Positions 5,545-21,406 of a stretch of DNA of 64,000 bases are shown here, piece after piece. The DNA lies in NCBI RefSeq assembly GCF_023195885.1, contig NZ_JALPKO010000003.1, positions 124,001-188,000 of the forward strand. The letters are read 5' to 3'. Position 1 is the first letter of the stretch. Each line of letters starts with the position of its first letter. The notes under the pieces were generated by a model. The model made no database searches and was not told where the DNA came from. It saw only the letters and a program-made list of their open reading frames with translations. Made by a program: the position numbers and the translations under genes. The stretch is from Methylonatrum kenyense (GTDB taxonomy: Bacteria > Pseudomonadota > Gammaproteobacteria > Nitrococcales > Aquisalimonadaceae).

Positions 5545-6966
5545 ATGGCCGGGAAGAAGTACTCCGCGGGCGTCAAGGATTACCGCGAAACATACTGGAT
5601 GCCGGAATACACGCCGCTCGATACCGATATTCTGGCGTGTTTCAAGATCACCCCGCAGCCGGGTATTGATCGTGAGGAAGCCGCCGCCGCCGTTGCCGCT
5701 GAATCCTCCACCGGCACATGGACCACTGTCTGGACCGATCTGCTGACCGACCTCGATTACTACAAGGGTCGTGCGTACGCCATTGAGGATGTGCCGGGTG
5801 ACGACGAGTCCTTCTACGCGTTTATCGCCTACCCGATCGACCTGTTCGAAGAAGGCTCGATGGTCAATGTGTTCACTTCGCTGGTCGGTAACGTGTTCGG
5901 TTTCAAGGCGATTCGGATGCTGCGCCTCGAAGACGTGCGTTTCCCGATTGCCTACGTCAAGACCTGTGGTGGTCCGCCGCAGGGCATCCAGGTCGAGCGG
6001 GACGTGATGAACAAGTACGGCCGGCCGCTGCTCGGCTGCACCATCAAGCCGAAGCTGGGCCTGTCCGGCAAAAACTACGGTCGTGCAGTGTACGAATGCC
6101 TGCGTGGTGGCCTCGACTTCACCAAGGATGACGAGAACATCAACTCGCAGCCCTTCATGCGCTGGCGGCAGCGGTTCGACTTCGTGATGGAAGCGATCCA
6201 CAAGGCCGAGGCCGAGACCGGTGAGCGCAAGGGTCATTACCTGAACGTGACCGCCCCGACCCCGGAAGAAATGTACAAGCGTGCCGAGTACGCCAAGGAA
6301 ATTGGCGCACCGATCATCATGCACGACTACATCACCGGCGGTTTCTGTGCCAACACGGGTCTGGCCAACTGGTGCCGAGACAACGGTGTGCTGTTGCACA
6401 TCCACCGCGCCATGCATGCCGTGCTCGACCGCCATCCGAAGCACGGTATCCACTTCCGCGTGCTGGCCAAGATCCTGCGCCTGTCGGGTGGTGACCATCT
6501 GCATACCGGCACCGTGGTCGGCAAGCTGGAAGGCGATCGCGCGGCGACTCTGGGTTGGATCGACCTGCTGCGTGAATCCTTCGTCCCGGAAGATCGCTCG
6601 CGCGGCATCTTCTTCGATCAGGACTGGGGCTCCATGCCGGGCGTCTTCGCAGTCGCCTCCGGTGGCATCCACGTCTGGCACATGCCGGCGCTGGTCAACA
6701 TCTTCGGCGACGACTCCGTGCTGCAGTTCGGCGGCGGCACCCTGGGCCATCCCTGGGGCAATGCGCCGGGTGCCACGGCGAACCGTGTCGCTCTGGAGGC
6801 CTGTGTCCAGGCACGCAACGAGGGTCGCGAGATCGAGAAGGAAGGCAAGGAAATCCTGACCGAGGCTGCCAATAGCAGCCCCGAACTCAAGATCGCCATG
6901 GAAACCTGGAAAGAGATCAAGTTCGAGTTCGACACCGTCGACAAGCTGGACGTGCAGCACAAGTAA
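5545..6966 (+). CDS. cbbL: ribulose-1,5-bisphosphate carboxylase/oxygenase large subunit, form IA
   Basis: Fixes CO2 onto ribulose bisphosphate in the Calvin cycle; 473 residues, the usual form I length. The active-site stretch [17 protein letters not shown] places the carbamylated lysine at K194, and TIKPK supplies K168/K170 at the substrate site; the loop 6 region follows [17 protein letters not shown]. The N-terminus ([20 protein letters not shown]) is of the carboxysomal IA (IAc) type. A strong ribosome site precedes the ATG. It heads an operon with cbbS and the cso shell genes, so this Rubisco is carboxysomal cargo. Confidence 0.99.
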
Positions 6967-6977
6967 TGGCGCGGCCC

Positions 6978-7003
6978 GGCGGGCGCCACGGGGGCTGCCC
7001 GCC
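6978..7003 (+). promoter_or_regulatory. stem-loop between cbbL and cbbS
   Basis: GGCGGGC (6978-6984) and GCCCGCC (6997-7003) can pair over a 12-base loop. There is no T-run, so it is more likely an mRNA-stability or processing element than a terminator. The effect on cbbL:cbbS stoichiometry is inference. Confidence 0.4.
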
Positions 7004-7044
7004 ATTCAGGCCTACCGAGAGAACCAACACACAGGATGACCGAC

Positions 7045-7377
7045 ATGTCCGACGTTCAGAGTTTCAAGCAGTCGCAGAAGTACGAGACGTTTTCCTATCT
7101 GCCGGAGATGACCGCTGATCAGGTGCGGCGCCAGATTCAGTATTGCATCGCCCAGGGCTGGAGCCCGTCGATCGAGCACAGCGAGAAGGAAAACGCCTTC
7201 GGCCACTACTGGTACATGTGGAAGCTGCCGCTGTTCGGCGAGCAGTCGGTGGAAGCCGTGCTGGCCGAGATCGACGAGTGCCGTCGCGCCAACCCGGGCC
7301 ACCTGGTGCGCTTCGTCGCCTACGACAACTATGCCCAGAGCCAGGGCATGGCTTTCGTGGTCGATCGCGGCCGCTGA
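7045..7377 (+). CDS. cbbS: ribulose-1,5-bisphosphate carboxylase/oxygenase small subunit
   Basis: Small subunit of form I Rubisco (110 residues from the ATG at 7045; an ATG at 7036 would add three residues). I prefer 7045 because [20 protein letters not shown] lines up with carboxysomal CbbS N-termini and AGGA lies 8 bases upstream. Family features are [33 protein letters not shown] and [15 protein letters not shown]. Second gene of the operon. Confidence 0.98.
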
Positions 7378-7457: not shown

Positions 7458-10391
7458 ATGAGTAATCCGACATCGGGGTCCGAACGTCTGTCGGGGCGCG
7501 AGCTCGCCCTCGCACGACGCAAGGCCATGTCAAAGGGCGGGAAGGCGGCCCTGCAGACGAACGCGAAGCAGGGCGGTGACAGCCGTGCCGGTCGCGTGCG
7601 ACCTGCTGCCGAGCCGCAGGCACCGGCGACCTCGCTGGTGCCACAGGAGCGGCAGGCTGCACCTTCGCCGGAGTCGCTGGCAACCGCCTCGCCGCAGCGC
7701 CCGGCACCCGAGCGTACGCCGGAGCCCGGGATCAGCAGTGGTGCTTCCAACGGGCGTCAGATTGCCCTGGAACGTCGCCGCGACGCAGCCCGTCGTGGCA
7801 AGAAAGCGCTCAAGGGGGCCAATGCCCGGGCGGAAGGCATGGCGCGAATGGGGTCGGCCCGGTCGCGTCAGCTCGAGGCCCTGGCCAGGTCGCAGAATGT
7901 AGACTGCTCGAACATGAGTGGGCGCGAAATTTGCCGCCTGCGGCGTCATGCGCTGGCCAATGAGGGCAAGGCGGCAGTGGCGTCCGAGACGCGCCGTCAG
8001 GACCTGTTGAAAGGCCGCGCGGCATCGCCAGCGAGTCGACCCGGCAACGGCCGGTCCGCTCCGGCGGTTGAGGAACGCGTCGCGGAAGAAGCCGTTGAAG
8101 CCGGATTCCAGGCCTTGTGTGACCAGGTCGAGTCGACGCCGGCCGACGCCGGTGGCGTCACCGAGCCACTGGTTTCGTCGGTCCGTGCGCTGTGCATGGC
8201 CCGGCGCGAGGCCATGGCGCATCGCGGCAAACGCGGCCTGCGTCAGCGCCGTAACGGCGGTGGGTTTGGCCGTGGCGTGATGCCCCAGGAAGGCACCTGG
8301 AAGGCGGCGCAGCGCAAGGGGTATTCAACCCGCGAAATTGCCCGTCAGCGGCGTGAGGAACTGTGCCAGATCGGGCGCGGCTCATCCGAGCCGGCACGTC
8401 CCTGCGGTCGACCGAAGGTGGAGTCGGCGGCGCCGGTCAAGGTCGAGGAGAGCGAGACGCTGTCCGGTGGTCGCGTGACCGGCACCCAGGTTCAGCGGGC
8501 AGCGGCTGTAACCGGGACCGAGGCTGGTAGCTGCAGCGCCATCACCGGCACCGAATACCTCAGTCTCGAACACTACGACCGGTATTGCGGGCAGCGCCCC
8601 GTTGGCGGACCCGGCAAGGTGGGCCAGTCGCATACTGCCAGTGGCCAGGCCGTCAGCGGTACCGAAGTGGGCCGCTCGCCGCGGGTCACCGGAGACGAGG
8701 CCGGTACCTGTGGCGCCGTGACCGGAACGGAATACCTGGCTTCCGAGCAGTTCGAGGGCTTCTGTGGTACGCGGCCGGAGGTCGGCCCGCGAAAGGTCAA
8801 CGCGATGCCGACCCGCGGTGGCGAAGTGGTCTCTGGCACCAGCGTCGGTCGCAGTCCGGTGGTCACTGGCGACGAATCCGGTTCCTGCCGCAGCATTACC
8901 GGCACCGAGTACCTGAACGAAGCCGCGAGCGAGGTTCCCTGTGGCACACCGTCGGCGGACGGTGTGCCGAAGGTGGGTGTCATGCACACCCTGAAGGGCC
9001 GCGAGTTGACCGGTACCGAGGTGGGCCGCTCGGTCCATGTGACCGGTGACGAATACGGCAGCTGCAAGCCGGTGACCGGTACCGAGTATCTGGGTCAGGA
9101 GCAGTTTGACAGCTTCTGCGGCAGTCAGCCGGCAGCGACTCCCGAGAAGGTGCACGAGCTGCGCACGCTCGGTGACCAGACCATTACCGGTACTGCGATC
9201 GGGCGCAGCCCGCGTGTCACCGGTGATGAGAACGGATCCTGCGGACACCTGACCGGAACGCCGTACTACAACAAGGCGGATTTCGGTGAGCTGTGCCGTG
9301 AGCCCGCGGCGGGTGGCGTGCCCAAGGTGGGTGTGATGCACACCCTGCGTGGCAAGGAAGTCTCGGGCACCCAGGTCGGGCGCTCGTTCAATGTCACCGG
9401 CGATGAATACGGGGGCTGCAAGCCGATCACCGGTACGGAATATGTGGGCTCGGACCACTATCAGGCATTCTGCGGCTCCAGCCCGGAAGCGCCTCCGGGC
9501 AAGGTCACCGTTGGCCGGACCTGGAACCAGCAGTCGGTGTCCGGCACCCCGGTTGGTCGATCCAGCCGTGTGACCGGCGACGAATACGGGGCCTGCAAGC
9601 CCGTGAGTGGTACGCCGTATATCGGGCCCGATCAGTACGATGCTTTCTGCGAGGCGCCGGAGACGGATGTCGCCGGTCAGCGCGTGGCCGATCGCCACGC
9701 CACCCCGGGTCACCCCGTGTCAGGCAGTCAGCCCGGCTATGACGAGCGCGTGACCGGTACCGAGCGCGGTGCTTGCCAGAATGTATCGGGTGCTCCTTAT
9801 GTCGGGTCGGACGAGTTCGGCCAGGCATGCCCGCCGGATGCGTCAGGCCTGCATCCGAGGTTCCGGCCCGAGGGCATGCAGCCGGCAGCCGCGGCACCGG
9901 CGTCCCGGCCGATGCCGAACGGTGGTTTCAGCGTCGAGACGCCGGCGCGTACCGCGCAGCAGCGGCGCGAACGCCGTGTGACCGGAACCGCCTATGGCAG
10001 TGCCAGCGGTATCACCGGCCCGATCAACAAGGCGATGGGTCTGGTGTCGGGCACCGAGGAATTCCGTTACCGGGACCAGCGCGATCAGCCGGTGGTTGCA
10101 GAAGCCGAGGGGCCGGTGTCGGCCGCCGACCGGGTGACCGTCAATGGCAGCAGCAACGGTGTGACCATCACCGGTGATGACTGGCAGCGCGGCAACAACA
10201 TTACCGGGACCGAGGGTTTTTCGACGCGTCGCAACCTCACCCAGCGCGGAAATCCGCGTGGTGAAGGCCGCAGCGCCTATGTCAATCGGGAGCTGGAACG
10301 CAAGGACGTGCCGCCCAGCAGGATCACCGGTTCGTCCGGGAACAGTGACGCCGGCTCGCTGGTGACGCTGTCCGGCGGTGCCCGGGGCTGA
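7458..10391 (+). CDS. csoS2: carboxysome assembly scaffold CsoS2
   Basis: Intrinsically disordered scaffold (977 residues) linking Rubisco to the shell of alpha-carboxysomes. N-terminal domain: four basic Rubisco-binding repeats of the GRE(L/I)AxxRRxA type near residues 12-30, 98-116, 154-172 and 241-260, with a fifth weaker one at 290-302. Middle region: seven repeats with paired cysteines and V/ITGT motifs (340-731). C-terminal region: degenerate ITG/VTG motifs and a final ITGSSGNSDAGSLVTLSGG peptide. A purine-rich ribosome site (AAGGAAG) precedes the ATG. It is long for the family, partly through the extra middle repeat and proline/arginine linkers. Confidence 0.97.
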   Translation: MSNPTSGSERLSGRELALARRKAMSKGGKAALQTNAKQGGDSRAGRVRPAAEPQAPATSLVPQERQAAPSPESLATASPQRPAPERTPEPGISSGASNGRQIALERRRDAARRGKKALKGANARAEGMARMGSARSRQLEALARSQNVDCSNMSGREICRLRRHALANEGKAAVASETRRQDLLKGRAASPASRPGNGRSAPAVEERVAEEAVEAGFQALCDQVESTPADAGGVTEPLVSSVRALCMARREAMAHRGKRGLRQRRNGGGFGRGVMPQEGTWKAAQRKGYSTREIARQRREELCQIGRGSSEPARPCGRPKVESAAPVKVEESETLSGGRVTGTQVQRAAAVTGTEAGSCSAITGTEYLSLEHYDRYCGQRPVGGPGKVGQSHTASGQAVSGTEVGRSPRVTGDEAGTCGAVTGTEYLASEQFEGFCGTRPEVGPRKVNAMPTRGGEVVSGTSVGRSPVVTGDESGSCRSITGTEYLNEAASEVPCGTPSADGVPKVGVMHTLKGRELTGTEVGRSVHVTGDEYGSCKPVTGTEYLGQEQFDSFCGSQPAATPEKVHELRTLGDQTITGTAIGRSPRVTGDENGSCGHLTGTPYYNKADFGELCREPAAGGVPKVGVMHTLRGKEVSGTQVGRSFNVTGDEYGGCKPITGTEYVGSDHYQAFCGSSPEAPPGKVTVGRTWNQQSVSGTPVGRSSRVTGDEYGACKPVSGTPYIGPDQYDAFCEAPETDVAGQRVADRHATPGHPVSGSQPGYDERVTGTERGACQNVSGAPYVGSDEFGQACPPDASGLHPRFRPEGMQPAAAAPASRPMPNGGFSVETPARTAQQRRERRVTGTAYGSASGITGPINKAMGLVSGTEEFRYRDQRDQPVVAEAEGPVSAADRVTVNGSSNGVTITGDDWQRGNNITGTEGFSTRRNLTQRGNPRGEGRSAYVNRELERKDVPPSRITGSSGNSDAGSLVTLSGGARG
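8475..9650 (+). repeat. seven tandem CsoS2 middle-region repeats
   Basis: Seven units of about 56 codons, each of the form (V/I/L)(T/S)GT-x-VGRS-xx-VTGDE-xG-x-C-xx-(V/I)TGTEYL-x10-C. The central units read VTGDEYGSCKPVTGTEYL and close variants. These VTGT/VTGD motifs are the shell-binding elements of CsoS2. The first unit is degenerate in its first half (VTGTQVQRAAAVTGTEAG). An eighth, C-terminal-type unit follows (VSGSQPGYDERVTGTERGAC). Confidence 0.9.
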
Positions 10392-10414: not shown

Positions 10415-11959
10415 ATGAGTCTCGGACGGCGTAGCAAGACGCCATTGGGTTCGCGTTACGCGATGCCGTCTGGCACGCCGGCCCCGCAACAGCCGCGGGA
10501 AGCGCCGCAGGAGCGTTCCCGCATGGATGCCGAGGCGCCACCGGAGCAGCCGGAACGGCTGCTGCAGCCGGGGCATCCGCTGGCGGACCGGGCGGCAAAC
10601 GAGACGCTGCACGGCTTCGAGCAGGCGTTTCGGCAACGCTTCGAAAGGCTGGTGCCGGTGCTCAAGGAGCTGCATGCGACGCAACATGCGTTGTCGTTCC
10701 CGGAGCGGGCCAGGGAGTTGATTGCGGAGTCGCTTGGTTTCGCGGCCCCGGCAGCCTTGCTGGACGACGCCTGGATCAATGGACTGGATACGCGGGCCCT
10801 GTACCTGCACGGCATTTTCGAGTTGTTCGAGCAGGTGGTGAATGGCTACTGGGCAGGTCGGGACGATCTGGTGAGTGAGGCGGAACGCGCAACGGCCTAC
10901 TTCCTGGATTGCGATTTCCACGAAGTGGATATCTCGCCATGTTCCGACGGCCGGTTGCTCGGCTTGCGCCGCTTCATCCTGCGGCTGCCGGATCTGGCGG
11001 TCCGGACCAGGAGCCATGCCGGGGCCCTGTTTGATGTTGAGGAGGATGTCAGGTACTGGACACGGCGCGAGCTATTGCGCTTTCGCGAAGGGCAGCCGAC
11101 CACGGCGGATGTGCCAAGCCGCTACCTGAAGATCGCCGTGTACCACTTCAGCAGCCGGGATCCGGCGCACGAGGGTTGCATGGCGCACGGCAGCAACGAA
11201 CGCGATGCGGCGGACGCGGCACTGAGGCAGTTGCGCAGCTTCAGGCAGGCGATAGAGAACACGTTTTGCTGCGGTGCCTCGGTGGACACCCTGCTGATCG
11301 GGGTCGATACCGACACGGACGCGATCAAGCTGCATGTGCCGGATGGCGAGACGCGGATGAGCCTGTACCGCTATGTCGACACGGCGGTGTTGTATCGGCA
11401 GACCCGCGAGCTGCCGGAACAGGAAGCATCGCTGCGGGTATACCAAGCGCTGCAGCAGGCCATCGCCCAGCAGGGCTGGGGGCGTGGCAAGGGCGAGCCG
11501 CATGAGGGAATGTTGCGGCTGATTACCCGGCTGCTGCTGAACAACCTGTCGCAGCTCGATTACGTGGCGCGGTACCACGATGGCCGGTACGCGGACGGGG
11601 GACATCGGGAACGGCTGATTCTGGTCGGCCACGAGGTGGAAGAGATGCAGGTGCGGAACTTCGCCTACTTCGCCCACCTGGAAACGCTGGAAGAGGGCGG
11701 GCCTGGGCTGGATGTCGGGGTCGAGAAGATTTTTCGCAAGCTCAACACAGAGCGCGGCCTGCCGATTCCCGTGGTGGTGCATTACCGCTACGACCGGCAT
11801 GTGCCGGGGTCGCGGGAACGGGTGGAAAAACGCTGCCGGCGAATCCGGCGGGTGATTCTGGAACGGTACAGGGAACTGGTGGACCAGGGCCTGCTTGGCT
11901 GCCACATGGTAATTCGGGACAAGCAAAGCGGCAGTCAGCTGGAACGGCTTGCTGCCTGA
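10415..11959 (+). CDS. csoSCA: carboxysomal carbonic anhydrase CsoSCA (CsoS3)
   Basis: Epsilon/beta-class zinc carbonic anhydrase inside alpha-carboxysomes, 514 residues. The catalytic dyad and zinc ligands are visible: C176-x-D178-x-R180 (SPCSDGR), H244 (VYHFSSRDP) and C255 (AHEGCMAHGS), with the H-to-C spacing of 11 expected from the Halothiobacillus enzyme. The N-terminal about 50 residues are disordered and basic/proline-rich, as in the segment known to bind Rubisco. It follows csoS2 by 23 bases. Confidence 0.96.
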   Translation: MSLGRRSKTPLGSRYAMPSGTPAPQQPREAPQERSRMDAEAPPEQPERLLQPGHPLADRAANETLHGFEQAFRQRFERLVPVLKELHATQHALSFPERARELIAESLGFAAPAALLDDAWINGLDTRALYLHGIFELFEQVVNGYWAGRDDLVSEAERATAYFLDCDFHEVDISPCSDGRLLGLRRFILRLPDLAVRTRSHAGALFDVEEDVRYWTRRELLRFREGQPTTADVPSRYLKIAVYHFSSRDPAHEGCMAHGSNERDAADAALRQLRSFRQAIENTFCCGASVDTLLIGVDTDTDAIKLHVPDGETRMSLYRYVDTAVLYRQTRELPEQEASLRVYQALQQAIAQQGWGRGKGEPHEGMLRLITRLLLNNLSQLDYVARYHDGRYADGGHRERLILVGHEVEEMQVRNFAYFAHLETLEEGGPGLDVGVEKIFRKLNTERGLPIPVVVHYRYDRHVPGSRERVEKRCRRIRRVILERYRELVDQGLLGCHMVIRDKQSGSQLERLAA

Positions 11960-11976
11960 GGGATGACGGAACGGCG

Positions 11977-12228
11977 ATGAAGATCTGCAAGGTGGAAAAG
12001 ACCCTGGTGTCGACCAACCGTATCAGCACGCTCGGCCATCGGCCGTTGCTGGTGGTGCGGGAGAAGAAGGGCGGTGCACGCACCGTTGCGGTCGATGCCG
12101 TCGGCTGCGTGCCGGGGGACTGGGTCATCGTGGTTGGCAGTTCGGCTGCCCGCGAAGCCGCCGGCAGCAAGGAATACCCCAGCGATGCGACGATCGTCGG
12201 CATCATCGACTACTGGGAGGATGAATAG
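11977..12228 (+). CDS. csoS4A: carboxysome shell vertex protein CsoS4A
   Basis: Pentameric BMV (EutN/CcmL) shell protein, 83 residues, that caps icosahedron vertices. Recognisable features are the MKICKVEKTLVSTNRI start, the DAVGCVPGDWVIVVGSSAAREAAGSK core and the TIVGIIDYWEDE end. It lies between csoSCA and csoS4B with short gaps. Confidence 0.95.
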   Translation: MKICKVEKTLVSTNRISTLGHRPLLVVREKKGGARTVAVDAVGCVPGDWVIVVGSSAAREAAGSKEYPSDATIVGIIDYWEDE

Positions 12229-12231
12229 TCC

Positions 12232-12564
12232 ATGGAGATCATGCAGGTGAAGGATGAGCTCACCGTGACCCGCCGGGTCGACGGTTTGAAGACCACTTCC
12301 CTGCGCGTGCTCGTCGACCACCAGGGTGGCCAGGTGGTGGCGGTGGATCCGGTCGGAGCGCACCCGGGCAACTGGGTGTTCACCGTCAGCGGTTCTGCGG
12401 CACGGCATGCATTGGACGACAAGGCAATCACGACCGATCTGACCATCGCCGGCATCATCGATCATTGGGATGACGATGGTGACCGGCAGGGCAGGCCGGA
12501 GGAACGGGCTGGACACGACCAGACCAAGGCACAGCGCTCTGCCAGTAACCGCAAGGCGGCTTGA
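12232..12564 (+). CDS. csoS4B: carboxysome shell vertex protein CsoS4B with C-terminal extension
   Basis: Second pentameric vertex protein. The first about 78 residues have the family pattern (VAVDPVGAHPGNWVFTVSGSAARHA, then TIAGIIDHWDDD). It then continues for about 30 highly charged residues (DGDRQGRPEERAGHDQTKAQ...) beyond the usual 80-83 residue length. A GGGAGGATGA ribosome site lies just upstream, inside the csoS4A end. Confidence 0.94.
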   Translation: MEIMQVKDELTVTRRVDGLKTTSLRVLVDHQGGQVVAVDPVGAHPGNWVFTVSGSAARHALDDKAITTDLTIAGIIDHWDDDGDRQGRPEERAGHDQTKAQRSASNRKAA

Positions 12565-12611: not shown

Positions 12612-12905
12612 ATGGCTACTGAACGTTTTGGTGTTGCGCTGGGCATGATCGAAACCCGCGGTCTGGTGCCGGCAATTGAAGCCGCTGATGCGATGACCAA
12701 GGCCTCCGAGGTGCGTCTGATCGGACGTCAGTTCGTCGGCGGTGGTTACGTGACCGTGCTGGTCCGTGGCGAAACCGGTGCCGTGAACGCCGCGGTGCGT
12801 GCGGGTGCGGATTCCTGCGAGCGAGTGGGTGACGGCCTGGTGGCCGCGCACATCATCGCCCGCGTGCATTCCGAAGTGGAATCCATCCTGCCGGAAAAGC
12901 CGTAA
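12612..12905 (+). CDS. csoS1: carboxysome shell hexamer CsoS1 (first copy)
   Basis: Single-BMC-domain hexameric shell protein, 97 residues, forming the facets. I place the start at the ATG at 12612 (MATERFGVALGMIETRGLVP), preceded by AGGAGAAAG; an in-frame upstream start would add 17 non-family residues. It is identical to the next gene over about 90 residues and differs only at both ends (ends LPEKP). Confidence 0.97.
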   Translation: MATERFGVALGMIETRGLVPAIEAADAMTKASEVRLIGRQFVGGGYVTVLVRGETGAVNAAVRAGADSCERVGDGLVAAHIIARVHSEVESILPEKP

Positions 12906-12971
12906 GGCGAAACCGGTAATTATGCCGCCGCGGCATCCTGCCCGGCGGCCCGAAGAGTGAAGAGGTAGACA

Positions 12972-13286
12972 ATGGCGAGCGAAATTTCTGGTGTTGCGCT
13001 GGGCATGATCGAGACCCGCGGTCTGGTGCCGGCAATCGAAGCGGCTGACGCGATGACCAAGGCCTCCGAGGTGCGGCTGATCGGACGTCAGTTCGTCGGT
13101 GGCGGTTACGTGACCGTGCTGGTCCGCGGCGAAACCGGCGCCGTGAATGCTGCAGTGCGTGCCGGCGCGGATTCCTGTGAGCGAGTCGGTGACGGCCTGG
13201 TGGCTGCACACATCATCGCCCGCGTGCATTCCGAAGTGGAAAGCATTCTGCCGATGGCCCCGAGCGCCAACGGTTCTGCCAGCTGA
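12972..13286 (+). CDS. csoS1: carboxysome shell hexamer CsoS1 (second copy)
   Basis: Single-BMC-domain hexamer, 104 residues, starting MASEISGVALGMIETRG after an AGAGG ribosome site. The BMC core (VRLIGRQFVGGGYVTVLVRGETGAVNAAV and onward to VESILP) is identical to the preceding copy. The C-terminus is longer (MAPSANGSAS). The near-identity at DNA level suggests recent duplication or gene conversion. Confidence 0.97.
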   Translation: MASEISGVALGMIETRGLVPAIEAADAMTKASEVRLIGRQFVGGGYVTVLVRGETGAVNAAVRAGADSCERVGDGLVAAHIIARVHSEVESILPMAPSANGSAS

Positions 13287-13296
13287 GGCAGTCGCC

Positions 13297-13740
13297 ATGT
13301 CTGATCCGCGGATCATCGGGTATCTGAGCCGCGCGGTAGCCCACGAGCTGTCCGCGGTTCAGCACTACCTGAGCCAGGCACGCCTGACGGCGTTTTGGGG
13401 CATGGAAGCGTTCAGCCGTGAACTTCGGCAGGAGGCGGACGAGGAGCTGGTGCATGCGGACCGGTTCATCACCCGTCTGCTGCAGTACGGGGTCAGCCCC
13501 AAGGGCGGTTCCCTGTCACCGGCCAGGCTGGGTCGGTCGCAGTCCGAGCTGCTGCTGCAGAACATCGAGCTGGAGCGGGATGCAGTGCGGCTTTACGAGG
13601 AAGCCGCGGACTACTGTCGCCGGCGCGGTGCCCTGGCGGATGCCGAGTTGTTCGAAGCGGTTCGCGACGAGGAACTCGATCACCTCCGCGGCATGGAGCA
13701 GCAATTGTACGACGCAGCGGATGGAGGCCGTCATGGCTGA
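13297..13740 (+). CDS. ferritin-like (bacterioferritin-domain) protein of the carboxysome operon
   Basis: A four-helix ferritin-like protein, 147 residues, starting at the ATG at 13297. Metal-type residues appear in AHELSAVQHYLSQ, EADEELVHADRFI and DEELDHLRGMEQQL, giving the E...ExxH...E pattern of the family. Such bacterioferritin-like genes recur after csoS1 in alpha-carboxysome loci, but their role (iron/redox control) is not settled. Its stop overlaps the next gene's start by 8 bases. Confidence 0.85.
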   Translation: MSDPRIIGYLSRAVAHELSAVQHYLSQARLTAFWGMEAFSRELRQEADEELVHADRFITRLLQYGVSPKGGSLSPARLGRSQSELLLQNIELERDAVRLYEEAADYCRRRGALADAELFEAVRDEELDHLRGMEQQLYDAADGGRHG

Positions 13741-14014
13741 TACGCATTCTGTCGCACCTGCAGGCTGGGAGTCGACCAAGGGTTCGGCGGCACCGTCCAT
13801 GAGCAAGAAATTCACGTTCGAGCGCTACGGCGTAACGCGGGAATTTCTTGACCGGTTGGCCGATCTCTCGGAAGAGGATGGCTATCACCCGAACATCAGT
13901 TTCGGTACGACCTACGTCAGCATCACGATCGACGCGCGGGACGGCGAGACCCTTGGCGAGGCTGACCGGGCCTTTGCCGAGGCGGTGGATCGTCTGGCAA
14001 TCATCGAGGACTGA
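13733..14014 (+). CDS. pterin-dehydratase-like Rubisco assembly factor (acRAF)
   Basis: A 93-residue pterin-4a-carbinolamine dehydratase-like protein. In alpha-carboxysome organisms this paralogue acts as a Rubisco assembly factor rather than in pterin recycling. The fold signature FERYGVTREFLDRLADLSEEDGYHPNISFGTTYVSITI is visible in two parts, while the canonical pterin-binding HHP motif is reduced to YHP, as in acRAF. The start at 13733 overlaps the ferritin-like gene and has GGAGG upstream; an internal ATG at 13799 (MSKKFTF) is an alternative that would remove a disordered 22-residue leader. Confidence 0.88.
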   Translation: MADTHSVAPAGWESTKGSAAPSMSKKFTFERYGVTREFLDRLADLSEEDGYHPNISFGTTYVSITIDARDGETLGEADRAFAEAVDRLAIIED

Positions 14015-14056
14015 CGCGTCGTGGGCAGGCAGATTCGTCGTCCGGATGGCAGAAAA

Positions 14057-14698
14057 ATGGATGGAGCGGCCACGGTCATCGCGGTCGTCAACCAGAAGGG
14101 CGGTACCGGCAAGACCACGGTGACAATGAATCTGGCCGCCGGGCTTGCGCGACGCGGCCGGACGCTTGTGGTTGACGGCGATCCGCAGGGTTCGGCCGGT
14201 CAATGGGCGCGTATGGCGCCGGAGGAGCGGCCGTTTCCCGCATCGGTGTTCGCGGTCGCCGGCCCGCTCGACCGTGAACTCAAGGCGCTGCGGCGGGATT
14301 TCGAGTTTATTGTCGTGGACTGCCCACCAACGCTGGAAGGGGGGACGGTGTCAGGGGCGCTTGCGGCTGCGGACCAGGTACTGATTCCGGTACTGCCCTC
14401 GCCAATGGACCTCTGGGGCAGCGTGCGCATGGGGCGCCAACTGGATGATGCGAAGGCGGCCAACCCCAAGCTCAAGCCCTGCATTGTGGTCAACCAGGTG
14501 GAAGTGCGCAGCGCGCTTTCCAGGGCGATGAAAAGTGCCCTGATGGAGATCGACATTCCGGCCCTGGAACAGCATCTGCGACGGCGCGCAATCTATCGGC
14601 GTGCCGCCCTTGAGGGGGGCTCCGTCTATGACCTGGGCAAACCGGGGCTGGCGGCGGCCGCCGAAATCGACGCGATCATCGACGAGGTGTTGGCATGA
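14057..14698 (+). CDS. mcdA: ParA-type ATPase McdA, carboxysome positioning
   Basis: ParA/MinD-family ATPase that forms gradients on the nucleoid to space carboxysomes. The deviant Walker A KGGTGKT is at residues 14-20, followed by VVDGDPQGSAGQWA and VVDCPPTLEGG. With the ATG at 14057 the protein is 213 residues; an in-frame GTG at 14021 would add 12 basic residues and cannot be excluded. It overlaps mcdB by 4 bases (ATGA), the expected McdAB pair. Confidence 0.93.
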   Translation: MDGAATVIAVVNQKGGTGKTTVTMNLAAGLARRGRTLVVDGDPQGSAGQWARMAPEERPFPASVFAVAGPLDRELKALRRDFEFIVVDCPPTLEGGTVSGALAAADQVLIPVLPSPMDLWGSVRMGRQLDDAKAANPKLKPCIVVNQVEVRSALSRAMKSALMEIDIPALEQHLRRRAIYRRAALEGGSVYDLGKPGLAAAAEIDAIIDEVLA

Positions 14699-14967
14699 GC
14701 AACCTGGAAAAGAAACTGGCCGCCGGCGTGCGCGCGGCGCGCGAGGAGCAGGACGAGGGCAAGCAGACGGCAAAGCCCGAGTCCGAGAAACCGGATTCGG
14801 CCAAGGCGGCGCCGAAAAAGGCCTCCGCCGCATCGAAGCCCCGGTCTGCCGCGGCGCGCAAGACAACGCCGCGCAAGCCTGCGGCCAAGACGCAAGCCAC
14901 CGAGGCCAAGGCCACCGCCGACGAACCCTGGACCAATCTCCACCCGGACCATATCTGGCCGGATTGA
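14695..14967 (+). CDS. mcdB: McdB, alpha-carboxysome positioning adaptor
   Basis: A 90-residue, low-complexity protein rich in Lys, Ala, Pro and Ser that ends in DEPWTNLHPDHIWPD. Alpha-type McdB proteins are short and disordered with an invariant tryptophan at the C-terminus, and are encoded directly after McdA. It loads onto carboxysomes and stimulates McdA. Identification rests on position, composition and the terminal IWPD. Confidence 0.88.
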   Translation: MSNLEKKLAAGVRAAREEQDEGKQTAKPESEKPDSAKAAPKKASAASKPRSAAARKTTPRKPAAKTQATEAKATADEPWTNLHPDHIWPD

Positions 14968-15048
14968 GCGGCGACGTCGCCGGGTCCGCGATAGCGCCGG
15001 CAGCAATGCGCCGGCGCCGCGGTCGGCTGACGGCCTGAGGAGTCGAGA

Positions 15049-15852
15049 ATGCAGGACGAACTGCGTGATCACCTGATCACCAAAGAACCGTATTATCAGC
15101 CGGTTGGCGACGAGGTCGAGCTCTACGAGGCGGCCTATTCGGTGCGTCTGCCGATGATGCTCAAGGGGCCGACCGGCAGCGGCAAGACCCGTTTCGTCGA
15201 GTACATGGCCTGGCGCCTGGGCAAGCCGCTGATCACGGTGGCCTGTAACGAGGACATGACCGCCTCGGACCTGGTCGGTCGGTTTTTGCTTGATGCCGAA
15301 GGGACCCGCTGGCAGGACGGCCCGCTGACACTGGCCGCTCGGCACGGTGCAATCTGCTACCTCGATGAAGTCGTCGAGGCCCGCCAGGACACGACGGTTG
15401 TGATTCACCCGCTGACGGATAACCGGCGCGTGCTGCCGCTGGAGAAGAAGGGCGAGCTGGTGGAGGCGCATCCGGACTTCCAGGTTGTGATTTCCTACAA
15501 CCCTGGCTATCAGAGCCTGATGAAGGATCTGAAGCAGTCCACCAAGCAGCGTTTCGGCGCCCTGGATTTCGATTACCCGGATCACGACACCGAGGCCCGG
15601 ATCGTGGCCCATGAGGGTGGCGTCAGTGAGGAACTCGCCGGCAATCTGGTCAGCGTTGCGGAGCGGGCCCGGAACCTGAAGGGGCACGGCCTGGACGAGG
15701 GCATTTCGACCCGCATGCTGGTTTATGCGGCGTCATTGATTGCCAAGGGCGTGCAGCCGCTCGGCGCCTGCCGCATGGCCCTGGTGCGGCCGATTACCGA
15801 CGATCCGGACATGCGCGATGCGCTCGATTCCGCAGTCACCACGTTCTTCTAA
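15049..15852 (+). CDS. cbbQ: Rubisco activase AAA+ subunit CbbQ
   Basis: MoxR-class AAA+ ATPase, 267 residues, which with CbbO removes inhibitory sugar phosphates from Rubisco. Walker A GPTGSGKT (40-47), Walker B CYLDEV (D106-E107) and the arginine-finger region near [17 protein letters not shown] are visible. It is followed 36 bases later by cbbO. The 14968-15048 gap upstream shows nothing beyond a GGAGTCGAG leader. Confidence 0.95.
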
Positions 15853-15888
15853 CAGGGTGCGGCGTCACGACGTTGCCTGGCCACGCTC

Positions 15889-18210
15889 ATGAGTATCACC
15901 CTGGATGATTACAGCGATCTGCTCGAGGATCTGGGGCAACACGCCTCCGAAGTGCTCAAGTCGTCCTGGCAGGAAGCGAGCCGTGCATTCAGCGTCCAGG
16001 GGCTGAAGCGCTACTACCTGGAAGGTGCGCGCAGCCTGCATTCGCTGGGCCGCGGCAACGAGCTGGTCATCGCCTTCATCCAGGAGGCTCCGGATCTGGC
16101 GCATGAACTGGGCGAGGATGCGGTTGGCGAGCTGGTGAGTTCCGCCATCCGCATGTATTCCAAGACCAGCGCCGCGGTCATCACCCTGCTGATCTCCGTC
16201 AGCCCCACGGCAGCCCGCAAGCTCGGCGACCTGTCGCTGTTCCAGGGTTTTCTTCGCCTGCTGGACAATCTGCTCGGCCAGGCCCCTCGCGGTGTGCGGC
16301 CGATGCTCGAACACCTGGACGAACTGCTTGCACACCTGACCCTGGGCGGGCTGCGGCGCTGGGCGACTTGGGGCGCGGAGGCACACCGCACCGATCTGGA
16401 GGCGCAGCAGGCCTATTTCTCGCTCGGGTCTCCCGAAGCACGATCGGTGTTCCAGAAGGAACGTCGCGGCACACTGTTCGTCAACGTCCAGCGGCGGATC
16501 AACATGTACCTGCGGGCACTCTGGGCGCGCGACTTCTTCATGCGGCCGACCAGTGGCGACTTCGAGTCCAAGGAGGGCTATCGCCCGTTCATCGAAGGCT
16601 TCACGATTTTTTTGCCGGATGCCTATGACGATGAGGCGGGGCTGACCGGCCTGGATCTGTATCGCGCGGCGGCCGCGCATGCGGCGGCGCATATGGTCTA
16701 CACCCGGGAGATGCAGGAGGACGAAAAGCCGCTGGCGCTGTTCGGGGTGCTTACCGAGCTGATCGAGGATGCCCGGGTCGAGACACTGGCGATCCGTGCG
16801 TTTCCCGGTCTGCGCCAGATCTGGAAGCCCCTGCACCATGCCGGACCCGAGGATGGCAATGAGGCGGCCGCGTTGATCGCGCGCACCGCCCGTGCACTGC
16901 TGGACCCGGACTACGAGGATGACGAGTATTTCGTGCATGCGGCGCGGACGCTGTTCAATGAACGTCTGGACCGTCTGGAGGAGCCGGGATTCAGCCGCCA
17001 GCTCGCCGCCGAGCTGGCCTCCCATTTTCCTTGGCAGAGCCACATCAATCCACGCAACGTCATGCCCGATGTGCGCTACCGGGACGACAACCGCTACATG
17101 TGGGCCTTCGGTCGCGAGGACGAGGATGCGGAGCTGGTGGCCGGCTCCAAGGGGCAGCAGGAGCGCCGTGACGTCACCATCATGGAGATGATCAACGAGC
17201 TCGATGTCCCCGGGGCCGGCGACGATGCGCAGCAGGTCTGGGTCCTGTCCACCGAGTTCTTCCGCGACTCCGAGGACGTCAGCATCAACCAGCAGGAAGG
17301 GCGCGAGCCCTTGTCCTTGCCATACCACTACCACGAGTGGGATTACCAGATGCAGCTGGAGCGGCCGCACTGGGTTACCTTGCTCGAGCGGCGGCCGCCG
17401 CTGGGTGAGCTGGAGGAGATCGAGGAACTTGCCAGCAAGCACCGGCCGATCATCTCGCGGTTGAAGTTCCTGATCGAGGCAATGCAGCCCCAGGGCGTGC
17501 AGCGCCAGCGCCGGCAGCCCGATGGTGACGAATTCGACCTCAATGCGCTGGTCGAGTCGCAGGTGGACCTGCGCATGCGGCGACAGCCCGATGAGCGTGT
17601 CTACATGCGTTCCATCCGCAAGGTCCGCGACCTGTCCGTGCTGGTGCTGCTCGACCTGTCCGAATCCACCAACGAGTACGTGCGCGGCACCGAGAACACC
17701 GTGGTCGGCCTGGCCCGTGAGGCAGCGGCGCTGCTGGCCGACGCGATCAACCGCATCGGTGATCCGTTTGCGATCCACGGTTTTTCCTCGGACGGACGCC
17801 ACGACGTGGAGTACTTCCGGTTCAAAGATTTCGATGCCCCTTACGACGACTACGCCAAGGCCCGCCTGGCCGGCATGACCGGGCAGTTGTCGACCCGCAT
17901 GGGCGCCGCGATTCGCCATGCCGGAGAGATGCTGCACCGGCAGGGGACGCAGAAAAAGCTGTTGCTGGTGCTGACCGACGGCGAACCGTCGGACACCGAT
18001 GTGCGGGATCCCCAGTACCTGCGGCAGGATGCCAAACGTGCGGTCGAGGAGGCCGCCAAAAAGGGCGTGTTCACCTTCTGCATGAGCCTGGATCCCTATG
18101 CCGATGAATACGTCGAGCGGATTTTCGGTGCCCAGCATTACATGGTGCTGGATAACGTCGAACGACTGCCCGAGAAACTGCCGATGCTGTACGCGGGACT
18201 GACGCGTTGA
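15889..18210 (+). CDS. cbbO: Rubisco activase adaptor CbbO with VWA domain
   Basis: A 773-residue partner of CbbQ that recognises Rubisco. The N-terminal two thirds are CbbO-specific; the C-terminal von Willebrand factor A domain has the MIDAS motif D589-x-S591-x-S593 (LVLLDLSESTNEY), and LVLTDGEPSDTD supplies the later acidic residues. Length and pairing with cbbQ fit the family. Confidence 0.95.
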   Translation: MSITLDDYSDLLEDLGQHASEVLKSSWQEASRAFSVQGLKRYYLEGARSLHSLGRGNELVIAFIQEAPDLAHELGEDAVGELVSSAIRMYSKTSAAVITLLISVSPTAARKLGDLSLFQGFLRLLDNLLGQAPRGVRPMLEHLDELLAHLTLGGLRRWATWGAEAHRTDLEAQQAYFSLGSPEARSVFQKERRGTLFVNVQRRINMYLRALWARDFFMRPTSGDFESKEGYRPFIEGFTIFLPDAYDDEAGLTGLDLYRAAAAHAAAHMVYTREMQEDEKPLALFGVLTELIEDARVETLAIRAFPGLRQIWKPLHHAGPEDGNEAAALIARTARALLDPDYEDDEYFVHAARTLFNERLDRLEEPGFSRQLAAELASHFPWQSHINPRNVMPDVRYRDDNRYMWAFGREDEDAELVAGSKGQQERRDVTIMEMINELDVPGAGDDAQQVWVLSTEFFRDSEDVSINQQEGREPLSLPYHYHEWDYQMQLERPHWVTLLERRPPLGELEEIEELASKHRPIISRLKFLIEAMQPQGVQRQRRQPDGDEFDLNALVESQVDLRMRRQPDERVYMRSIRKVRDLSVLVLLDLSESTNEYVRGTENTVVGLAREAAALLADAINRIGDPFAIHGFSSDGRHDVEYFRFKDFDAPYDDYAKARLAGMTGQLSTRMGAAIRHAGEMLHRQGTQKKLLLVLTDGEPSDTDVRDPQYLRQDAKRAVEEAAKKGVFTFCMSLDPYADEYVERIFGAQHYMVLDNVERLPEKLPMLYAGLTR

Positions 18211-18259: not shown

Positions 18260-19276
18260 GTGACCACCCAGCCACGCGAGCCGGCACTGCCGCAGGTGAT
18301 GCTGAAGTCGGAGCTGCCCGAGCACCTGATTCGGCACGCAACGCTGCGCCAACTTCAGGTCTTCGAGGCCATTGTCCGTCTGGGCAGTTTCACCCGCGCG
18401 GCGGAAGAGCTGCATCTGACCCAGCCGACGGTCTCGATCCAGATCAAGAAACTGTCGACGGCTCTCGGGTTGCCATTGTTCGAGCATGTCGGTCGCCGTG
18501 CCGAGCCAACGGAAGTCGGCCTGCTGCTGTATGACACCTGTCGTGAAATGCTGGGTGCGCTGACCAATCTGGAAATGAAACTGGCGGAACTACATGGGCT
18601 GCAGCGTGGCCGGCTGCAACTGGCGGTTATCACCACGGCGCAGTATTTCGCGCCCAGCCTGTTGGGTCAGTTCGCGCGGCGCTATCCGGAAATCGAACTG
18701 GCGCTGGAAGTCAGCAACTTTGACCGGGTCCTGGATCGGCTGGCCAACAACCTGGACGACCTTTACATCATCGGCCATGTCCCGGAGCGGCTGCGCGACG
18801 TCGCGATCTACCCGTTCGCGCCCAACCCGCTGGTGGTGATGGCGAGCCGTGATCATCCGCTGGTCCGCCGGCGGCAGATCCCGCTGCAGGAACTGGAGAA
18901 GGAAACCTTCCTGATGCGGGAGCCGGGATCCGGTATCCGCGAGGCAACGCTGCGCCTGTTCGAGGCCCACGGCATCAGCCCCAGGGTGCGAATGGAGCTT
19001 GGCAGCAACGAGGCCATCAAGCAGGCGGTGATCGGCGGGCTCGGCGTGGCGGTGCTGTCGCTGCACACCCTGAGTGCAGAGGGTGCGGAAGGACCGGTGG
19101 CGCTGCTCGATGTGCAGCATTTCCCGATCCACCGCCAGTGGCACATCGTGCATCCCAAGAAAAAGGTGCTGTCCGTGGTGGCGCGCGCCTTTCTTGATTT
19201 CGCGATTCAGGACGAGGCGCGGCTGCGAGCCCAGATCGACGGCATGCTGGCCGCCTTCAAGGCGCAGACGGACTGA
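18260..19276 (+). CDS. cbbR: LysR-type regulator CbbR
   Basis: LysR-family activator of Calvin-cycle genes, 338 residues. The helix-turn-helix is at about residues 27-90 (LRQLQVFEAIVRLGSFTRAA), followed by the co-inducer-binding domain. The GTG start at 18260 is supported by GGAG 5 bases upstream, and gives an unusual 25-residue leader before the HTH. It is in the same orientation as, and directly after, cbbO, unlike the common divergent placement, so it may be autoregulated as part of the operon. Confidence 0.9.
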   Translation: MTTQPREPALPQVMLKSELPEHLIRHATLRQLQVFEAIVRLGSFTRAAEELHLTQPTVSIQIKKLSTALGLPLFEHVGRRAEPTEVGLLLYDTCREMLGALTNLEMKLAELHGLQRGRLQLAVITTAQYFAPSLLGQFARRYPEIELALEVSNFDRVLDRLANNLDDLYIIGHVPERLRDVAIYPFAPNPLVVMASRDHPLVRRRQIPLQELEKETFLMREPGSGIREATLRLFEAHGISPRVRMELGSNEAIKQAVIGGLGVAVLSLHTLSAEGAEGPVALLDVQHFPIHRQWHIVHPKKKVLSVVARAFLDFAIQDEARLRAQIDGMLAAFKAQTD

Positions 19277-19334: not shown

Positions 19335-19916
19335 ATGAGCGAACGACAGGCAAGCGGCCATTCAGCGATTACCGGCACGCAGTTCATCGATGCAAATGAG
19401 GCGATGCGTGGGCGCATGAGCCTGAGCGCGGCGCATCGGGATCAACGCCATCCGGTGACCGGCACGGGCATGGGGGCCGGACCCGCTCCGGTGGATACCC
19501 CCGCCAACGAGACCTGCGTGGTCTGCGCTCCGGCCACGCTGCGGCTGGCCGAGGAATTGTTCGAGCGCTGGAACGCGGCCCTGCAGACCGGCGATGCCGA
19601 TCGGGTCGTCGCCAATTACGCCGACGATGCGGTGCTGTTGCCGACCGTGTCGAATGTGCCGCGTACCTCGCCGGCGGAGATCCGCGATTACTTCCTGCAT
19701 TTCCTGCAGAAACAGCCGGTGGGCAGGATCAACCAGCGCAATGTCAAGTTCGGCTGCAACAAGCTGACCGATGCGGGCACCTACACCTTTCGGGTACGCG
19801 AGGGGACCGAGGTGCGGGAGGTCCCGGCCCGTTACACCTTCGTCTACGAACATCGGGATGGTGACTGGACGATCGTCCATCACCATTCGTCGATGATGCC
19901 GGCGGATGACGGCTGA
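19335..19916 (+). CDS. iota-class carbonic-anhydrase-like protein with CsoS2-type encapsulation motifs
   Basis: A 193-residue protein in two parts. Residues 1-60 are low-complexity and contain AITGTQFID (ITGT at 12-15) and HPVTGTGMG (VTGT at 41-44), matching the ITGTEYL/VTGT shell-binding motifs of CsoS2 encoded upstream. Residues about 66-190 are an NTF2/SnoaL (DUF4440, CaMKII-association-like) domain: AEELFERWNAALQTGDADRV, then RYTFVYEHRDGDWTIV and H182-H-H-S-S186. The HHHSS signature is that of iota-class carbonic anhydrases. A CVVC pair (61-64) joins the parts. A GAGG ribosome site precedes the ATG. Enzymatic function and encapsulation are inferred, not shown. Confidence 0.75.
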   Translation: MSERQASGHSAITGTQFIDANEAMRGRMSLSAAHRDQRHPVTGTGMGAGPAPVDTPANETCVVCAPATLRLAEELFERWNAALQTGDADRVVANYADDAVLLPTVSNVPRTSPAEIRDYFLHFLQKQPVGRINQRNVKFGCNKLTDAGTYTFRVREGTEVREVPARYTFVYEHRDGDWTIVHHHSSMMPADDG

Positions 19917-20167: not shown

Positions 20168-21115
20168 ATGGCATTTGAACCGGTCGTTCTGTTTTTCCTG
20201 CTCGGGGTTATTGCCGGTCTCGCCAAGTCGGATTTGAAGATTCCGACTGCGGTCTACGAAGCCTTGTCCGTGTACCTGCTTCTGGCCATCGGTATCACCG
20301 GCGGCGTGAAACTGGCGGAAAGCAGCCTGGTGCCGCTTATCCTGCCCGGTCTCGCCATTTTGGTGGTGGGCTGCCTGATTCCCCTTATCTGCTATCCGGT
20401 GTTGCTGTTTTTCGGCGGCATGAAACGGGCCGACTCGGCCTCGCTGGCGGCGCACTATGGGTCGGTCAGTGTGGTCACCTTCTCCGTTGCAGTTGCCTTC
20501 CTCGCGCAGGCCGGGATCGACTACGAGGGCCATATGGTCGTGTTTCTGGTGCTGCTGGAAATCCCGGCACTGGTGGTGGGGATCCTGCTGGCGCGCGCGG
20601 GCCTGCCGGGCAAGACGCGCTGGGGCATGACCCTTCGCGAGGTCTTCTTCGGCAAGAGTATCTTTCTGCTGATCGGCGGCCTGATCATCGGCTACGCTGC
20701 GGGGCCGGAACACATTGGCCCGATGGAGCCGTTGTTCTTTGATCTGTTCAAGGGCTTGCTGGCGTTTTTCCTGCTGGAGATGGGCCTGGTGGCGGCCAGC
20801 AAGATCGCGGATTTTCGGTATTACGGAAAATTCCTTTTGGGCTTCGCGGTGATCATGCCGATCTTTTCGGCGATTCTCGGTACCCTGCTCGGCTGGGGGC
20901 TCGGCATGAGCCTCGGTGGCACCCTGCTGTTGGCCACGCTTTATGCCAGTGCGTCTTATATCGCGGCGCCCGCGGCCATGCGTATTGCAGTACCGGAGGC
21001 CAATCCCGCACTATCCATCGGTGCAGCCTTGGGCGTGACGTTCCCGTTCAATATATTCGTGGGTGTGCCGCTGTATTTCTGGATGGCGGAAACGCTCTAT
21101 TCGATGGGAGGTTAA
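20168..21115 (+). CDS. sbtA: sodium-dependent bicarbonate transporter SbtA
   Basis: Inner-membrane Na+/HCO3- symporter of the SbtA (DUF897) family, 315 residues with about ten hydrophobic segments. Family-typical stretches include the N-terminal PVVLFFLLGVIAGLAKSDLKIP and AHYGSVSVVTF, and the late SASYIAAPAAMRIAVPEANP. It supplies bicarbonate for the carboxysome. The ATG follows GGAGGTTGAGG. It is 3 bases from the PII-like gene sbtB. Confidence 0.95.
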   Translation: MAFEPVVLFFLLGVIAGLAKSDLKIPTAVYEALSVYLLLAIGITGGVKLAESSLVPLILPGLAILVVGCLIPLICYPVLLFFGGMKRADSASLAAHYGSVSVVTFSVAVAFLAQAGIDYEGHMVVFLVLLEIPALVVGILLARAGLPGKTRWGMTLREVFFGKSIFLLIGGLIIGYAAGPEHIGPMEPLFFDLFKGLLAFFLLEMGLVAASKIADFRYYGKFLLGFAVIMPIFSAILGTLLGWGLGMSLGGTLLLATLYASASYIAAPAAMRIAVPEANPALSIGAALGVTFPFNIFVGVPLYFWMAETLYSMGG

Positions 21116-21118
21116 GCA

Positions 21119-21406
21119 GTGGAAGCCGACAACTACCTGCTGACGGTAGTCAGTGAATCCATCCTCGAGGATCGCCTGATCGACGAGATTCGCGAACTCG
21201 GTGCCACTGGTTACACCGTCACCGATGCCCGGGGTTGGGGGAAGCATGGCAAGCGTCGGGGCAAGTGGCAGCAGGATAGCAACGTCCAGATCCAGGTTGT
21301 GGGCCCCCGCGAGCTGTGCGAGGCCATCTGCGCCCGATTCAAGGAAGAGTACCAGACGGATTTCGGCCTGCTGCTGTTGATCTCACCGGTGGAAGTCAAG
21401 AACTGA
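21119..21406 (+). CDS. sbtB: PII-like SbtA partner SbtB
   Basis: A 95-residue PII-superfamily trimer protein that regulates SbtA in response to adenine nucleotides. The beta-alpha-beta pattern (YLLTVVSESILEDRLIDEIRELGATGYTV), a basic T-loop (ARGWGKHGKRRGKW) and the second half (VQIQVVGPRELCEAICARF) fit SbtB. It begins at a GTG after GGGAGG and overlaps the sbtA operon closely. Confidence 0.9.
   Translation: MEADNYLLTVVSESILEDRLIDEIRELGATGYTVTDARGWGKHGKRRGKWQQDSNVQIQVVGPRELCEAICARFKEEYQTDFGLLLLISPVEVKN

Follow-up and report, generated by a model that had tools for sequence, protein, structure and literature searches.

Bacterial carbonic anhydrases (CAs) of the iota class (iCAs) are predicted to be periplasmic (PMC8132391), and (H)HHSS has been described as the C-terminal signature motif of the class (PMC8425729). 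In the iCA of Anabaena, exchange of Thr106, Tyr124, His197 or Ser199 for alanine abolishes activity, and the two metal-free iCAs characterised in that work hydrate CO2 but show almost no dehydration of bicarbonate (PMC8132391). A carboxysomal iCA was described for Thiomicrospira by Wieschollek et al. (2024, AEM 90:e0107524), a paper represented here by the accounts given in PMC12628692 and PMC13159521. The csoSCA gene is absent from all Thiomicrospira (PMC9164163), which have an iCA in place of CsoSCA, and the summary in PMC12628692 reports this iCA in their carboxysomes. Short motifs of the type [IV]TG in CsoS2 contact the edge strand and His79 of CsoS1A and are critical for shell architecture and normal assembly (PMC10484944), and the CsoS2 C-terminus draws foreign cargo into shells (PMC10938918).

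Here, we describe an iCA gene in the carboxysome gene cluster of Methylonatrum kenyense, a soda-lake-type sulfur bacterium. The window, i.e. the whole stretch of DNA analysed, comprises 64,000 nucleotides, and the features discussed below are collected in Table 1. The iCA gene is present in one copy in its own 2.95-Mb genome. Its ORF starts with ATG, carries a ribosome-binding stretch (AGAGGAA) approximately 10 nt 5′ of the start and encodes a protein containing ITGTQFI, VTGTGMG, RYTFVYEHRDGDWTIV and HHHSS. A scan of the surroundings of the gene for promoters and terminators found none. The first-pass annotation had reported a gene with ITGT/VTGT motifs and HHHSS between cbbR and sbtAB, and this gene was confirmed as an intact ORF of 193 codons. 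A pseudogene and an artefactual start codon were considered as well and were both ruled out, since the ORF is intact and kept in relatives, and conservation of the tail begins right after the start in all of them.

Table 1: Features of the iCA gene and its neighbourhood (positions within the window).
Feature	Position	Strand	Basis
cbbL and cbbS, form I Rubisco	5545..7377	+	Pfam RuBisCO_large, RuBisCO_small
csoS2, 977 aa, source of the compared [IV]TG repeats	7458..10391	+	CsoS2_M, E 4e-174
csoSCA, intact carboxysomal beta-type CA	10415..11959	+	Cys/His/Cys ligand positions kept
csoS4A and csoS4B, shell pentamers	11977..12564	+	sequence matches
two csoS1 genes, shell hexamers	12612..13286	+	VAAH histidine kept in both
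bacterioferritin-like, parA-like, cbbQ, cbbO	13147..18210	+	Pfam matches, gene order
cbbR-type LysR regulator, 58 nt before the ATG of the iCA gene	18260..19276	+	sequence matches
tagged iCA gene, 193 aa	19335..19916	+	CaMKII_AD, SnoaL_3, DUF4440, TIGR02246 and 3h51 matches
N-terminal tail, residues 1-65, where most other bacterial iCAs have a signal-peptide-like stretch	19335..19529	+	alignments
motif 1, ITGTQFI	19368..19388	+	[IV][ST]G[TS] in 17/17 tagged full-length relatives
motif 2, VTGTGMG	19455..19475	+	[IV][ST]G in 15/17 tagged full-length relatives
predicted NTF2/CaMKII_AD-fold catalytic domain, residues 66-190	19530..19904	+	profile and structure-sequence matches
Thr104, putative counterpart of catalytic Thr106 (Anabaena iCA)	19644..19646	+	invariance; correspondence inferred
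Tyr119, putative counterpart of catalytic Tyr124 (Anabaena iCA)	19689..19691	+	invariance; correspondence inferred
HHHSS signature; His184 and Ser186 correspond to Anabaena His197 and Ser199	19878..19892	+	alignment to 7c5x
sbtA bicarbonate transporter and sbtB P-II-like protein	20168..21406	+	Sbt_1 E 2e-113, P-II E 3e-16

Residues 66-190 matched CaMKII_AD (PF08332) with an E value of 1.5e-17 and were also matched by SnoaL_3 and DUF4440, in each case above the curated cut-offs of Pfam; the match to TIGR02246 (SgcJ/EcaC) was likewise above cut-off (E 2.9e-15). Among solved structures, the best match is to 3h51 from Xanthomonas campestris (E 2.5e-32), a protein regarded as an iota-CA or apparent iota-CA (PMC8425729, PMC8132391), and true iota-CA structures were recovered by profile clearly for 7c5x (E 2.3e-15) and weakly for 7c5v (0.08). 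The HHHSS motif aligns with HHSS of the 7c5x iCA; this direct alignment anchors the assignment of His184 and Ser186, that of Thr104 and Tyr119 being based only on invariance and order, and all four residues were without variation in an alignment of divergent iCAs. An AlphaFold model from seven alignment rows was poor (mean pLDDT 45) and was therefore not used for a fold search; the fold is assigned from the homology with 3h51. The prediction of the C-terminal domain as an iota-class CA is thus supported by its family, its signature and the conservation of its catalytic residues. The first-pass annotation had made the same assignment, and it is borne out by the profiles (CaMKII_AD, DUF4440, TIGR02246), by 3h51 and by the alignment of HHSS with 7c5x, with the essential Thr, Tyr, His and Ser all kept. 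Since SnoaL and DUF4440 models of Pfam also score and TIGR02246 labels the family an oxidoreductase, the protein might be thought to be another SnoaL/NTF2-fold enzyme or a structural part of the carboxysome derived from an iCA. We consider this highly improbable, as the four mutationally essential iCA residues and HHSS are all present and matches to ketosteroid isomerase were far weaker than that to 3h51.

The cluster reads cbbL, cbbS, csoS2, csoSCA, csoS4A, csoS4B, two csoS1, bacterioferritin-like, parA-like, cbbQ, cbbO, cbbR, iCA, sbtA, sbtB, with a gap of 251 nt between the iCA gene and sbtA-sbtB. Between the parA-like gene and cbbQ, an ORF of 145 codons (14601-15038, +) without a Pfam match could encode a McdB-like carboxysome-positioning partner or could be just an overlapping frame. 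The order of the iCA gene and the carboxysome genes is conserved in the window, in the related loci L005-L010 and in genome G274, supporting that, in genomes of the window type and of Thioalkalivibrio, the iCA belongs with the carboxysome/CCM genes. In G169, G210, G320, G414 and G394, the gene is remote from the locus of csoS2 or lies on a different contig.

A CCM that accumulates bicarbonate would be short-circuited by a CA free in the cytosol, and because such a CA dissipates the bicarbonate pool, one encoded in a CCM cluster is expected to be enclosed. Together with the nearest published functional relatives, which are carboxysomal, and the association of the tail with CsoS2 described below, this loss of bicarbonate makes it improbable that the iCA acts in the CCM outside the carboxysome, for instance next to SbtAB at the inner membrane or as a cytosolic enzyme that balances pH or bicarbonate. 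Such a placement would nevertheless suit a gene that follows cbbR and adjoins sbtAB where the cluster ends, and that several genomes carry at a distance from their cso locus, and it would suit the two iCAs that hydrate CO2 with negligible dehydration (PMC8132391). By its context and by its published relatives, a carboxysomal location of the iCA appears well supported.

By sequence, the protein has no signal peptide. Its N-terminal tail was found in same-genus relatives, in Thioalkalivibrio sp. ALJ24, T. halophilus, T. sulfidiphilus and T. denitrificans and in further genomes found by profile. All full-length iCAs of the clade, those from csoSCA-lacking genomes included, have a tail bearing [IV][ST]G; we refer to these iCAs as tagged. 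A survey for V/ITGT-NTF2 fusions, as proposed in the first-pass annotation, located [IV][ST]G at the same place in 17/17 full-length relatives, the second motif being lost in G244 and in the second copy of G106. Among the 320 ORFs of the window (≥100 aa), [IV]TGT occurs 14 times, 11 times in CsoS2, twice in the iCA and once in an antisense frame, and the longer pattern [IV][TS]GT.[YF][ILV] is found in CsoS2 (6) and the iCA (1) only. The background of [IV][TS]GT in the other ORFs of all retrieved loci is 0.05 per 1000 aa, and the motifs of the iCA tail exceed chance.

The likeness to CsoS2 is limited to the core of the motif. A profile of the tail found nothing significant in CsoS2 (best E 1.5), and homology of the tail to CsoS2 as a domain was rejected on this account; the motif flanks, scored against 728 CsoS2 sites, were background-like without CsoS2 likeness. 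We therefore reduced the claim to a common core motif, and the likeness may be convergent or coincidental. Of the earlier description of the motifs as near copies of those in CsoS2, the common [IV][ST]G(T) core stands, but the flanks do not bear it out; the comparison indicates a common short linear motif rather than a copied repeat. In the low-confidence AlphaFold model the tail is coil only.

Flanks unlike CsoS2 also favour a carboxysomal iCA that enters via Rubisco or another part of the carboxysome, the ITGT likeness being incidental. The flexible N-terminus of CsoSCA binds Rubisco (PMC12646314), and the other conserved features of the tail, namely the RPRI start, S-x-S, Arg35, D-x-P and Cys64-x-Pro, are unexplained by a shell motif. 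On the other hand, no element of the tail is as regular as the [IV][ST]G core, which is rare elsewhere and coincides exactly with the element by which CsoS2 binds hexamers, and we hold entry by way of Rubisco or another partner to be unlikely. In our preferred reading, the tail would be an anchor and the motif a shell contact. Consistent with it, both CsoS1 proteins of the window have the histidine of VAAH, the reported [IV]TG contact.

We used a class-wide sample of 369 genomes with an iCA call at E 1e-10. CsoS2 was present in 72/369 and an iCA in 25/369. Tagged iCAs occurred in 10 of the 25 iCA genomes, nine of which have CsoS2, and untagged iCAs in the other 15, of which none has it (9:1 versus 0:15, Fisher p 4.9e-6), although these are not independent events because the sampled tagged iCAs are related. 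The only tagged genome without CsoS2 (G111) is a MAG of 84% completeness and encodes a BMC protein as long as CsoS1D. Untagged iCAs mostly have a signal-peptide-like start or no extension, the former fitting the periplasmic location predicted for bacterial iCAs (PMC8132391), and one genome with BMC genes and without CsoS2 (G346) has an untagged iCA. In a tree of the catalytic domain only, the tagged iCAs form one group with support of 91/94, and in a phylum sample of 398 genomes no tagged iCA was found beyond that of the window itself. These sequence comparisons support a genuine and conserved V/ITGT tail that is restricted to a clade associated with carboxysomes.

A CsoS2 genome of the same genus from outside the 369-genome sample (G009) encodes two separate iCAs, one of them tagged; the other (L004, 1501-1848, −) has a signal-peptide-like start and no tail. 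From their sequences, this would be one enzyme family with two addresses in one cell. A Thiohalocapsa MAG contains an iCA remnant (L011, 9959-10207, +) in which a start with VSG runs directly into the latter half of the domain, as though a deletion had removed about 100 residues, and the catalytic Thr/Tyr region is gone.

The CsoSCA of the window is retained. Compared to CsoSCA of H. neapolitanus (E about 1e-141), its Cys, His and Cys positions, which we take to be the zinc ligands, are kept, in agreement with the first-pass annotation; an [IV]TGT motif is absent. CsoSCA was found in 72/76 genomes checked. Nine genomes hold a tagged iCA together with CsoSCA (G000, G009, G010, G210, G244, G274, G320, G394 and G414) and two a tagged iCA without it (G106 and G169). 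In G106, a single contig of 1,932,455 bases, two neighbouring tagged iCA genes (L065, 5346-5876 and 7282-7803, −) lie beside cbbR and sbtA and csoSCA is absent; the second copy is strongly diverged and is the one missing the second motif. The pattern of these two genomes fits the published biology of Thiomicrospira. In a further genome, CsoS2 is present and CsoSCA was not detected (G096:C7:1-1020), which is probably due to an assembly gap because csoS2 runs off the contig end.

We consider it fairly probable that the window encodes a carboxysomal iCA of the Thiomicrospira kind, working beside CsoSCA and with its tail docking on the inner face of the shell. The flexible tail would dock on the CsoS1 hexamers by the same edge-strand and histidine contact as the [IV]TG motifs of CsoS2, anchoring the iCA inside the carboxysome, where it would turn bicarbonate delivered by SbtA into CO2 for Rubisco. 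By analogy, the near-nil bicarbonate dehydration of the two iCAs studied in PMC8132391 speaks against such a role in CO2 supply. As iCAs can work without metal, the enzyme may also serve as a backup for the zinc-dependent CsoSCA at scarce free zinc in alkaline, carbonate- and sulfide-rich water; this zinc-sparing role is a further guess. The stronger version, that the tail acts as a genuine encapsulation tag of native origin, docking a cargo enzyme straight onto the shell through mimicry of CsoS2, and that some alpha-carboxysomes contain two unrelated CAs, one zinc-dependent and one capable of working metal-free, is possible but falls somewhat short of being probable.

If true, two CAs per alpha-carboxysome would alter the view that each alpha-carboxysome has a single CA, and the coexistence could show the route by which Thiomicrospira lost CsoSCA, the iCA arriving first as a partner and the loss following later. 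An explanation of how a carboxysomal iCA enters was not found in the literature consulted, Wieschollek et al. (2024) aside. A conserved tail with the shell motif of CsoS2 offers a precise hypothesis for this entry that is open to mutation. It might also represent a short native encapsulation tag to complement the C-terminus of CsoS2, a cargo loader that competes with native CsoS2 (PMC10938918).

The suggestion in the first-pass annotation that the enzyme would represent a new cargo class is not borne out, because a carboxysomal iCA has been known since 2024 from Thiomicrospira, as related in the accounts of that work. Neither the [IV][ST]G tail nor coexistence with an intact CsoSCA was found in the literature consulted, and Wieschollek et al. 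(2024) may mention either. According to the same accounts, the system of Thiomicrospira shares with ours an alpha-carboxysome iCA in sulfur chemolithoautotrophs of alkaline habitats; the difference is that CsoSCA is replaced there, whereas the window co-encodes it intact. In our own comparison, the csoSCA-less G106 and G169 hold tagged iCAs of the same clade. Periplasmic iCAs (COG4875/SgcJ-EcaC), such as BteCA-iota of Burkholderia territorii and 3h51 of X. campestris, have the same catalytic domain and (H)HHSS, but a predicted signal peptide where the clade of the window has its [IV][ST]G tail. With the [IV]TG motifs of CsoS2 the tail shares the short core, its position in a flexible region and the genomes in which it occurs, but differs in flanks and spacing, with two motifs about 29 residues apart compared to one about every 8 in C-terminal fragments of CsoS2. 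CsoSCA, too, is a carboxysomal CA with a flexible N-terminus, but has an unrelated beta-type zinc fold and binds shell and Rubisco by other means (PMC12646314). To these systems we add an iCA beside an intact csoSCA in Thioalkalivibrio-type genomes, a tail conserved throughout its clade and the co-occurrence of this tag with CsoS2.
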